In this document: positions 30,583 to 49,239 of the stretch, one piece after another
Position numbering within the stretch: position 1 is the stretch's first letter
How the letters are laid out: every line of letters starts with the position of its first letter
Source: Sulfolobus sp. A20
Lineage (GTDB): Archaea; Thermoproteota; Thermoprotei_A; Sulfolobales; Sulfolobaceae
Direction of reading: 5' to 3'
Length of the DNA: 64,000 nt
Assembly: GCF_001719125.1 (NCBI RefSeq)
Contig: NZ_CP017006.1
Span: forward strand, 2,060,384-2,124,383
Made by a program: the position numbers and the translations under genes
Notes under the pieces: generated by a model
Told to the model about the DNA's origin: nothing
Databases searched by the model: none
What the model saw: the letters and a program-made list of their open reading frames with translations, nothing else

Positions 30583-31635
30583 TCAAAAGAATTCATCCAG
30601 GGTAGCTGATTTTATGAACTTACTTAACCTAACTCCAATTCTCCTTATTCTTCTATCATCGTCCTCTAAGAGTTTTTCAAGCAACTTTAGTGACTCTTTA
30701 TAGGCTCTTTCCTTACTTACTCCATAAGGGAATGTTTTCTCCCTGGTGATTATCTCTAAGTCCTCCATTACCGCAACTAGGTGAAGGGTCTTAGGCATCA
30801 TTCCGTTTAATCTGAGATAGGCTTCATCAACTGTTCTATACAAAAATGGTTTTATTTCCTCTATGTCCCTAGTATTTCTTTTTAGAGTGACCATCTTTCC
30901 CACGCTTTTGATAACTTTTTCCTTAATTGGCTCAGAATATTCATCTCTCGCTATAGAAAATAAATAGGTAGCCTTTGCTTCCCCCACTTGCTTCTTAATA
31001 ATCTCGAAATCAAAATTCAATATATCAATCAATTTTCTAATACCTAAAGCTTTTAATCTCTCCGCAGTTACTCTACCTATCCCAGGATATTCATCTATAT
31101 CTAGTTCTTTGATTAATCTTTTTACTTCTTCATCATTGATAACCTTGATGCCGTTTGGTTTCGACATATCAGCTGCTATTTTCGCAAAAACTTTATTTTT
31201 GGATATTCCTACTGTAACAGTTATTTTTTCCTGTTTCAGAATTCTTCCCTTTATTTCTAAACCTAATTTATATGCTTCCTCATAATCTTTTACCATATCA
31301 GTTATATCTAAGTAAGCTTCATCTATACTGGCTACCTCAATTTTACTTGAATAGCTTCTTAAAATATTCATAATCCTATTTGAGACTTGCTGATACAATT
31401 CCTTTCTCATTGGTAAATAAATCGCATTTGGTAAAATCTCTTTAGCTTTAATTATTGGCATTCCAGCCTTTACTCCATATTTTCTCGCCTCGTAGTTTGC
31501 AGTAGCTACGGCGCCACTAGTCTCACTTCTGCCAGAAAAAACACATACTACTACTGGTTTTCCCTTTATTGAGGGATTTAATACTTCCTCAACTTGAGCA
31601 TAAAAGTAATCGAAGTCCACGAAGAGTATAATCAT
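30583..31635 (-). CDS. dpo4: DNA polymerase IV, Y family (Dpo4/Dbh)
   Basis: 350 residues, close to the 352 of Dpo4. Catalytic carboxylates are visible in [15 protein letters not shown] (Asp7) and ASIDEAYLD (Asp105/Glu106); the steric-gate region is DFDYFYA, followed by the little finger domain. The C-terminus TLDEFF is a PCNA-interacting (PIP-like) tail. It bypasses DNA lesions in the cell. The flanking PfkB kinase gene overlaps its start by 4 nt, an odd operon partner. The region 30326-30582 is AT-rich with only a small GTAGC-TTT-GCTAC hairpin (30359-30371). Confidence 0.95.
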
Positions 31636-32486
31636 TTACATATAACTTTCGGCTTTTTCTTTCTTAAATATTCCCTTACTTCTTCTAATGTGGGCGAAGA
31701 TATTCCTCCTATTTTCATTATCTTTAAACCAGATGCTACTGTAGCTAGCTGTAAAGCTCTCTCTACGTTTCTATCCTCTAAGATCGAGATGTTAAACGCT
31801 GCGTCAAAAGTATCCCCTGCTCCGGTAGTATCGACTACTTTCTCCACTTCTAATGACTCTACAACGCACTCCTCATTATCTTGCGTTATTACTCTAGCCC
31901 CTTTCTTACCCATCTTAACTACAATATATTTAGCTCTGATATTCTTGTCTTTCACGTTTTCGAATTCTTTTTCATTTAAGTATAGAATATCTACGTCTAT
32001 TACGTTGATATCTTTAGAATAAGGTCCAGGATCATAAGATATTAGCTTAGCATATGGATCTCTAGTTACTATGTTGGGAGAGACTGAGGCAAAGTGAATT
32101 ACGTCAAATAGTCCAAAGTGTTTCTTAACGTCTTCCCTAGTTAATAGTATAGAGGCTCCTAACCTTCTAACCATAGATAAACTTCCATCATTTCTTAGAA
32201 AAATCAATGTTACGCTAGGTTTTTCATTTACTTCCTCAACATATTCTAAGCCTACCCCCATTTCTATAACTTTCTCCATTAGGCTTTTCACAACTTCATT
32301 CTTTCCCACTTTTGCTAATAACTTAGCAGAATGTCCAAATTTTGTAACAGCTACTGCGTAATTCGTTGCAGCCCCGCCTGGCAATATTTCCAATACGTCC
32401 GTCACGTGATTAGAATCTATAGGTGGTATCGTATCTAGTCTTACTATTACATCGATGTTAAACCTACCTACAGCTAAGTGAATCAT
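31632..32486 (-). CDS. PfkB-family sugar or nucleoside kinase
   Basis: 284 residues. N-terminal [17 protein letters not shown], the first PfkB-type motif [14 protein letters not shown], and the ATP/catalytic motif [14 protein letters not shown] with the base Asp. It phosphorylates a sugar or nucleoside; specificity unknown. SD-like GGTGG lies about 7 nt before the ATG at 32486, and a box C/D sRNA ends 17 nt upstream on the same strand, so the leader of this mRNA probably carries that sRNA. It overlaps the polymerase gene by 4 nt. Confidence 0.88.
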
Positions 32487-32502: not shown

Positions 32503-32553
32503 TCAGACAGCCGCCACAACATCACTTTCTTCAGTCCCAAAGGTCTTCATCAC
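32503..32553 (-). ncRNA. Box C/D sRNA candidate 1 (dual guide)
   Basis: Read on the minus strand: box C GTGATGA (32553-32547), a 12-nt guide AGACCTTTGGGA, box D' CTGA (32534-32531), a 5-nt spacer, box C' GTGATGT (32525-32519), a 12-nt guide TGTGGCGGCTGT, and box D CTGA (32506-32503). All four boxes are near-consensus and both guides are the canonical 12 nt. The D guide can form 11 pairs (two G-U) with the CAGCCGCCGCG of the 16S 530 loop. It directs 2'-O-methylation with L7Ae, Nop5 and fibrillarin. A TATA-like CTTTTATT lies about 25 nt upstream. Confidence 0.85.
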
Positions 32554-32915
32554 AAATTACTCTCTAACTTTCTAGTAATAAAAGTTAGTCTTTCGAGTGA
32601 TAATGGCAAAATATGAAAAATATTCCAATTATTAGGAATAATAATATAATTTCAGATTAACAATTATAATATATTTAACGTAAAAAGGAGATACCTATTT
32701 CCTCTTCAGTTTAAGAGATATCACTTAAAATCGCTTTAACATTCTTATGACGAAAAAAGGCATCAAAAAAAGTAGAATCTTCAAAGTATTATAAAAGTAT
32801 GGCAAGTGAGTTCTACGATTTAAGTGACTTAAATGTTAGATTATGCTAATATTGTACATAGTAGTATGGCATTTATGGTTAATTTCAAAAGCATTCCTAA
32901 ATAATTATATATAGT
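32554..32915. other. Intergenic region between the C/D sRNA and the TIP49-like gene
   Basis: AT-rich, no supportable gene. It holds the sRNA promoter at the left, a small hairpin TATTCC-AATTATTA-GGAATA (32621-32640), and AT-rich TATA-like sequence (32898-32913) just before the ATG at 32916. Nothing else is evident. Confidence 0.45.
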
Positions 32916-34274
32916 ATGGCTGAGATAAAAGAGATTAGAAAGCCGGTAAGGGAGAAGGCAAGTATTCACAGTCACATAAAGGGATTGGGTTTAGATGAGA
33001 ATGGGAAAGCTAAGTTCATAGCTGATGGTTTAGTCGGGCAGGCTGAGGCTAGAGAAGCAGCTGGGGTTGTAGTTCAATTAATAAAGCAAGGAAAGATGGC
33101 AGGTAAAGGAATATTATTCGTCGGTCCACCCGGAACTGGTAAAACAGCAATAGCAGTAGCCATTGCCAGAGAATTAGGGGAAGATACTCCTTTTACAGCT
33201 ATCAACGCATCGGAAATATACTCTACGGAATTAAAGAAGACAGAAATACTAACACAACTAATAAGAAAGTCTATAGGCGTTAGAATAAGGGAGAAGAGGC
33301 TGGTTTACGAAGGTGTTTTAAAGGACAGAAAAGTTAAGGTTGCTAGAAGTAGGTTAAATCCCTATTCTCAAGTCCCTGTTGAAGCCCAAATAACATTAGC
33401 TACCAAAGATGATGAAAGAACGTTGACTGTGGGAGAAGAGATAGCTCAACAATTAGTCTCTTTAGGAGTAAAGAAAGGCGATGTAATAATGATAGACGCT
33501 CAGACTGGACAAGTGATAGTACAAGGTAAAGCAAAAGGATTTGAAGGTATAAAGACTTACGATATAGAGACCTCAAGAGTTATTGAAATGCCTTCTGGTC
33601 CAGTGAGGAAAGAGAAGGAGATAACTACAACACTTACCTTGAATGATTTAGACCTAAATTTAGCAGCTAGAAACTTAGCGGTAACAGCAATATTCTCATT
33701 ATTCACAGAAAGGGAGGTAAGCGAGGATGTTAGAAAGGAAGTGGATAGGCTAGTTAAAGAATGGATAAACCAAGGAAGAGCTGAATTGGTAGTAGGTGTA
33801 TTGTTCATCGATGATGCTCATATGTTAGATTTGGAAGCCTTTTCCTTTCTCACTAGAGCGTTAGAGTCAGAATTAGCTCCTATAATAATCTTAGCTACTA
33901 ATAGAGGGATAACTAAAATAAGGGGAACTGATGTAGAGTCACCGCACGGCATACCATTAGATTTACTTGATAGACTTTTAATAATCCCGACTAGACAATA
34001 CAATGCTGAAGAAATAAAAGAAATAATTAAGATAAGAGCAGATGAACTTGAGATTGAGTTGGATCCCCAGGCTCTAGATGAGTTAACTAAAATAGGTGTA
34101 GAAAATAGTTTGAGATACGCTGTTCAATTATTAGAACCATCACAAGTAATAGCACAAAGGAATAATAGAAATGTTATAAAGGTTGACGATGTTAGAGAAG
34201 CTTCTAAGTTATTCTCTGATGTGAAGAGAAGCGTAAAGTTTGTAAAAGAGTATGAGAATCTATTATTAAAATGA
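32916..34274 (+). CDS. TIP49/RuvBL-like AAA+ ATPase
   Basis: 452 residues, colinear with eukaryotic RuvBL1/2: N-terminal [32 protein letters not shown], Walker [10 protein letters not shown], inserted OB-like domain II, Walker [11 protein letters not shown], sensor I ATNRG, and [16 protein letters not shown]. In eukaryotes RuvBL1/2 remodel chromatin and assemble box C/D snoRNPs. The catalytic Walker B Glu is Asp here (DDAH instead of DEVH). A C/D sRNA overlaps its stop codon and two others flank it. Confidence 0.93.
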
Positions 34275-34319
34275 TGTATGGTGACGGCTCTGAGGCAGTG
34301 ATGTAACTTAAAGGGCTGA
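34271..34319 (+). ncRNA. Box C/D sRNA candidate 2, overlapping the TIP49-like stop codon
   Basis: Box C ATGATGT (34271-34277) contains the TGA stop of the preceding gene. Then a 12-nt guide ATGGTGACGGCT, box D' CTGA (34290-34293), spacer GGCA, box C' GTGATGT (34298-34304), an 11-nt guide AACTTAAAGGG, and box D CTGA (34316-34319). The boxes and spacings are those of archaeal dual-guide sRNAs. There is no separate promoter, so the RNA is probably processed from the 3' end of the mRNA. Targets not identified. Confidence 0.8.
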
Positions 34320-34710: not shown

Positions 34711-34761
34711 TCAGTAACTTAAGACCTTCATCACTTTCTCAGAAGATCCGCTTTACTTCAT
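34711..34761 (-). ncRNA. Box C/D sRNA candidate 3
   Basis: On the minus strand: weak box C ATGAAGT (34761-34755), a 12-nt guide AAAGCGGATCTT, box D' CTGA (34742-34739), spacer GAAA, consensus box C' GTGATGA (34734-34728), a 13-nt guide AGGTCTTAAGTTA, and box D CTGA (34714-34711). The C', D' and D boxes and spacings are good; box C is degenerate. AT-rich AAATTTAAATATTATA (complement of about 34781-34796) lies 20-35 nt upstream and could be its TATA region. Targets not identified. Confidence 0.6.
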
Positions 34762-48871: not shown

Positions 48872-49156
48872 TAATAATAATAGTGTATATCGGGTTTAAA
48901 AGTTTTTAACTTTAGAATTTATCTATGTATAAAATTCTAAAAATTTTTTAATATAAAAAGTGATCAACATCAAACTTTTTATGTTAGTCCAAGGAGGGGA
49001 AGTAGAAAATATTAAGAGGAAAATTATCTCCTTATAGATTTTCTAGAAACGTACTTGAAGTAGCGTTGAAATCATGGATATCGAATCTAAATTACAAAAT
49101 AACACTCTAAACTTTATACAGAAAAATATTTAATTATCGTAAGCCACTCCATACTG
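48872..49156. other. Intergenic region upstream of accC and of the C/D sRNA
   Basis: It holds the accC TATA element (minus strand, near 48894-48901) and, at the right, AAAATATTTAATTA (about 49125-49138), about 20-30 nt before the box C of the sRNA at 49157. A stretch CCAAGGAGGGGAAGTAG at 48998-49014 resembles the GGGGAGGAAGTCAG tails of TnpB relics but is too weak to assign. No gene seen. Confidence 0.4.
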
Positions 49157-49205
49157 AGGATGACGAATCCGGGAACTGAGCAGTGAGGAAATGCGCGAAC
49201 GCTGA
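49157..49205 (+). ncRNA. Box C/D sRNA candidate 4 (dual guide)
   Basis: Box C AGGATGA (49157-49163), a 12-nt guide CGAATCCGGGAA, box D' CTGA (49176-49179), spacer GCA, box C' GTGAGGA (49183-49189), a 12-nt guide AATGCGCGAACG, box D CTGA (49202-49205). Both C boxes deviate from RTGATGA at one position, but both guides are exactly 12 nt and both D boxes perfect. The sequence is much richer in G+C than its surroundings, as expected for a structured guide RNA. A TATA-like stretch lies about 25 nt upstream. Targets not identified. Confidence 0.75.
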
Positions 49206-49239
49206 TCAATTGAAAAAGGAATTAGAAGGTAACAGATAG

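Follow-up and report, generated by a model that had tools for sequence, protein, structure and literature searches.

A dual-guide C/D box sRNA held at the start of a PfkB kinase gene throughout Sulfolobaceae and predicted to target the 16S 530 loop

A C/D box sRNA carrying two guides complementary to rRNA precedes the gene of a PfkB-family sugar kinase in Sulfolobus sp. A20. The explanation that best accounts for this locus, to which we give a probability of roughly 0.9, is that of a dual-guide sRNA that is co-transcribed with pfkB, cut or trimmed out of the message, and directs methylation of nucleotides C479 of 16S rRNA and A2426 of 23S rRNA. It builds on the architecture of the RNA, its targets in the rRNAs of the same genome, the retention of the guides, their target sites and the gene order among relatives, and substitutions that preserve pairing. 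The mechanism would start with transcription of the sRNA together with the kinase gene from the sRNA's own promoter, followed by release of the sRNA by cutting or trimming of the joint transcript. L7Ae, Nop5 and fibrillarin, whose genes are to be expected throughout Sulfolobaceae, would then bind the sRNA. In the resulting particle the D guide would position 16S C479 (E. coli C522), located in the 530 loop of helix 18 in the decoding centre, and the D′ guide would position 23S A2426 (E. coli 2286), each for 2′-O-methylation. TATA-driven transcription, RNP assembly and methylation according to the N+5 rule are the steps that established archaeal C/D RNA biology would predict for such an element.

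The analysis concerns a window of 64,000 nucleotides of the Sulfolobus sp. A20 genome, in which a model reading the letters without database searches (hereafter the sequence-only reading) had proposed a C/D layout on the minus strand. This layout is present at 32553-32503 (-) as GTGATGA-AGACCTTTGGGA-CTGA-AGAAA-GTGATGT-TGTGGCGGCTGT-CTGA (Table 1). As in archaeal C/D box sRNAs, the C (RTGATGA), D′ (CTGA), C′ and D (CTGA) boxes follow one another in order and enclose guides of ∼12 nt. C/D RNAs have little helical structure. A strict C-D′-C′-D pattern matches this locus and no other in the 64 kb, and gives 0 matches across 200 random sequences generated by a first-order Markov model with the dinucleotide frequencies of the window.

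Table 1. Features of the sRNA locus and its neighbours (window coordinates)
Feature	Position	Strand	Basis or remark
C box GTGATGA	32547..32553	-	sequence; TGATGA invariant across the 15-sequence alignment
D′ guide AGACCTTTGGGA	32535..32546	-	pairs with the genome's own 23S GCCCAAAGGTCA
D′ box CTGA	32531..32534	-	sequence and alignment of relatives
D′-C′ spacer AGAAA	32526..32530	-	sequence and length differ between relatives
C′ box GTGATGT	32519..32525	-	degenerate in relatives: GTGATTG, GTGCTGA, GTGAAGA
D guide TGTGGCGGCTGT	32507..32518	-	pairs with the genome's own 16S TCAGCCGCCGCG
D box CTGA	32503..32506	-	sequence and alignment
TATA-like element CTTTTATT	32577..32584	-	∼31 nt before the C box; presumed promoter
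PfkB-family sugar kinase	31632..32486	-	its orthologue immediately follows the sRNA in 30/30 testable genomes
TIP49/RuvB-like AAA+ ATPase, divergent neighbour	32916..34274	+	matches to RuvB and other AAA+ proteins, all remote

Both guides were scanned against the 16S and 23S rRNAs of the same genome. The D guide, for which pairing with the 530 loop had been claimed, forms 11 contiguous pairs with 16S TCAGCCGCCGCG (9 Watson-Crick and 2 G-U), the duplex beginning at guide position 2. Its N+5 nucleotide is C479, the counterpart of E. coli C522 in the alignment, as had been predicted. Shuffled D guides pair equally well somewhere in 16S or 23S in 23.6% of cases, so that the match in a single genome is insignificant and comparative evidence is required for the 16S target. 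The resemblance of the first guide to the complement of a 23S stretch, which the sequence-only reading had suggested, is borne out by 10 contiguous Watson-Crick pairs between the D′ guide and 23S GCCCAAAGGTCA, with A2426, aligning to E. coli 2286, as the N+5 nucleotide; shuffled D′ guides do as well in 16S or 23S in 1.8% of cases. Other targets of the D guide were considered and rejected, the second-ranked rRNA pairings being weaker and a perfect complement being absent elsewhere in the genome. The motif RCAGCCGCCRC, a perfect or near-perfect complement of the D-guide core, has its sole genomic match on the opposite strand of the sRNA gene itself; there is thus no better competitor target outside rRNA. 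In archaea, helix 18 of 16S rRNA is a published hotspot of sites at which guides are predicted to direct methylation (PMC4644070).

The comparative evidence comes from Sulfolobaceae. A nucleotide search recovered the sRNA in 17 of the 31 genomes of the family, and a sequence-only profile built from 15 of these 17 sequences extended the set of orthologues. In each of the 30 testable genomes, which belong to 11 genera, the sRNA comes immediately before pfkB; a genome was testable when DNA upstream of pfkB exists, which excludes the 31st (G025), in which pfkB lies at a contig end. The core of the D guide is retained in every one of the 30, and its substitutions are C/U exchanges opposite G that leave pairing intact; the first or second guide position is mismatched in some relatives. 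Across the 15-sequence alignment, boxes and guides are kept and the spacer and flanks drift. The targets do not vary: the 16S site CAGCCGCCGCGG is identical in the 10 Sulfolobaceae sequences that cover it, and the 23S site CCCAAAGGTC in all 20 Sulfolobaceae 23S sequences, that of Sulfolobus sp. A20 included. Most changes of the D′ guide replace C by U opposite G or fall at the guide edge, and GATCTTT and ACTTTT are among the variants that keep their pairs. Complementarity to 23S is gone in three genomes (G004, G006 and G010), which hold the weakest orthologues and still possess the boxes and the D guide; the 23S function is therefore not universal in Sulfolobaceae. That the two guides and their two targets have been kept on the scale of the family supports a role of this RNA as a guide. 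That the locus resembles a C/D RNA by chance, or is a pseudogene in decay, has next to no probability, for while a D-guide match in one genome often arises by chance, boxes and D guide intact across 30 genomes and 11 genera refute it.

The D guide extends beyond the family. A pattern made of the C′ box, the D guide and the D box is present in at least 84 of the 229 class genomes, a lower bound since the C′ variants GTGATTG and GTGCTGA fall outside it, and the reversed pattern used as control occurs in 2 of 229. Two guide positions were left open to C or U in this pattern and most others were fixed, and variation is visible at the open positions only. Wherever a 16S gene was found in these genomes the target reads CAGCCGCCGCGG; the only single-base variants are second sites in two genomes (G046 and G213), each beside a canonical copy, and a search for compensatory changes among the class 16S found gave none. 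With an invariant target, variation of the D guide can only be of the kind that wobble tolerates. Among 87 D guides, 42 have U then C at the open positions, 42 have C then U, three have C/C and none has U/U, which amounts to exactly one U-G wobble in 84 of the 87. Both single-U forms pair continuously with the target and are present side by side within six families (f3, f4, f7, f8, f9 and f11). The rarity of C/C and of U/U suggests selection for a single wobble, in a sample whose related genomes are not independent observations. With its conserved single wobble, this set of guides is a natural source of data on the duplex strength that is permissible between guide and target. Outside Sulfolobaceae each guide has different partners: the D guide is accompanied by D′ guides of another sequence, and the D′ guide for 23S by other D guides. 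Such swapping of partners is as expected if the guides behave as separate modules, and exchange of guide modules has been published for archaeal C/D sRNAs (PMC4644070). Through the shared D guide, the prediction of a 2′-O-methyl group in the 530 loop covers the whole family and more than a third of the class genomes searched.

The attachment to pfkB has its own features. The sRNA lies within the kinase leader, where it had been placed from the sequence, with 16 nt separating the D box from the ATG. The TATA-like element CTTTTATT is a probable promoter for both sRNA and pfkB, and in most relatives the best TATA-like match begins 30-37 nt before the C box. No TATA-like stretch is found in the short GC-rich D half just ahead of the start codon, so that sRNA and pfkB are probably co-transcribed. 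The distance from the D box to the start codon differs among genomes. In two genomes of genus g3 the ATG of pfkB shares the last A of the D box, and in two genomes of genus g10 the closest in-frame upstream ATG falls within the sRNA. In genus g6, the PfkB frame of 6/6 genomes starts at the CTG (CUG) of the D box; an in-frame stop (TAA or TAG) at the end of the guide closes the frame, and no ATG, GTG or TTG is found ahead of the conserved PfkB N-terminus. To judge by these reading frames, the likely start codon of PfkB in this genus is the CUG of the D box; if true, this would make a guide RNA overlap a protein-coding gene unusually tightly.

These overlaps bear on a reading in which the RNA has both roles, acting in trans as a methylation guide and competing, through its excision or RNP assembly, with translation of PfkB, so that the output of kinase would be coupled to formation of the sRNP. 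It would add to the explanation preferred here, and we consider it less likely than not. It finds encouragement in the D-box CUG that opens the PfkB frame in the 6/6 genomes of g6 and in the two g3 ATGs that overlap the D box, and a review reports, in what it says of C/D genes overlapping a 5′ end, that they reduce expression of the downstream gene (PMC7994747). It is weakened by the g6 start codons being deduced from reading frames and by the situation in Sulfolobus sp. A20, where the ATG is 16 nt away and excision would spare the coding region. A combined claim, that the kinase message is destroyed or impaired when the sRNA matures and that the 530-loop guide is selected for exactly one G-U wobble, is likewise doubtful, with the odds clearly against both parts holding together. 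Were the two-way element real, kinase synthesis would report on sRNP assembly, and in one genus maturation would remove the CUG start codon along with the D box. Were selection for the single wobble real, the strength of the duplex would look as if tuned for release of the decoding loop.

A different proposal would place cis action first: L7Ae bound to the C/D kink-turn in the pfkB 5′ UTR would control translation of PfkB, and the guides would be secondary. It would account for a position ahead of pfkB that never varies and for start codons that overlap the D box in two genera, and it has a precedent in S. acidocaldarius, where L7Ae acts on a leader kink-turn to repress the mRNA that encodes it (PMC5539422). 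A leader switch, however, would need no complementarity to rRNA, and here the complementary guides are kept while spacers and flanks drift; moreover, C/D RNAs of other families combine this D guide with another D′ partner. We regard this proposal as very improbable. The known autoregulatory leader (PMC5539422) resembles the pfkB sRNA in carrying a kink-turn motif in a 5′ leader near the ribosome-binding site, but the pfkB sRNA has both C/D and C′/D′ motifs together with conserved rRNA guides.

The preferred reading, a methylation guide released from the kinase transcript, brings the RNA close to described systems. Compared with archaeal C/D box sRNAs (sR families and the Sac-sR set of S. acidocaldarius; Dennis 2015, PMC4644070), its boxes, guide lengths, dual guides, N+5 rule and rRNA targets are alike and there is no difference in kind, except that each of its guides addresses another ribosomal subunit, while the two sites of many published double guides lie close together. 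C/D sRNA genes that lie within or across the beginning of a protein gene are likewise described by Tripp 2017, for 7% of the genes surveyed according to the summary given in PMC7994747; unlike the cases as summarised there, the present arrangement is held family-wide and the D box apparently serves as start codon in one genus. Searches with Rfam gave only weak sub-threshold sR matches at this locus and its orthologues, with no family above the gathering threshold, and a literature search by sequence found no paper printing the sRNA among those covered. About 60 C/D RNAs of S. acidocaldarius are known by sequencing (PMC4644070, PMC5539422). They probably include the orthologue of the pfkB sRNA at G022:C1:450910-450959, which comes from a genome whose kinship fits that species. 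The kind of RNA is already well known; what sets this one apart is that it has kept its place ahead of a kinase gene in the entire family.

The divergent neighbour of the sRNA encodes an AAA+ ATPase that we take to be the TIP49-like protein of Sulfolobaceae, and by coordinates this gene occupies the same place in 23 of the 30 genomes. C/D RNA genes lie on both sides of it (32503-34319). Eukaryotic RUVBL proteins, to which TIP49 is related, help to assemble C/D snoRNPs, and given this role the placement of a TIP49-like gene between C/D RNAs is suggestive. The second C/D-like RNA, at 34271-34319 (+), reads ATGATGT...CTGA...GTGATGT...CTGA, and the TGA on which the TIP49-like gene ends is part of its C box. 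The D′ guide of this second RNA forms 11 pairs (2 G-U) with the 16S rRNA of the same genome, with G1016 as N+5 nucleotide. Several relatives also carry a C/D RNA at the end of the TIP49-like gene. A third C/D-like sequence, at 34711-34761 (-), has looser boxes, with ATGAAGT as C box, and neither of its guides gives a strong match to the genome's own rRNA. In one relative (G013:C1:2513321-2514496) the TIP49-like gene has one in-frame TAG, and its match starts only at residue 60. Further along the window, at 49153-49207 (+), lies a C/D RNA of the Rfam sR33 family, with an above-threshold score of 46.4 bits.
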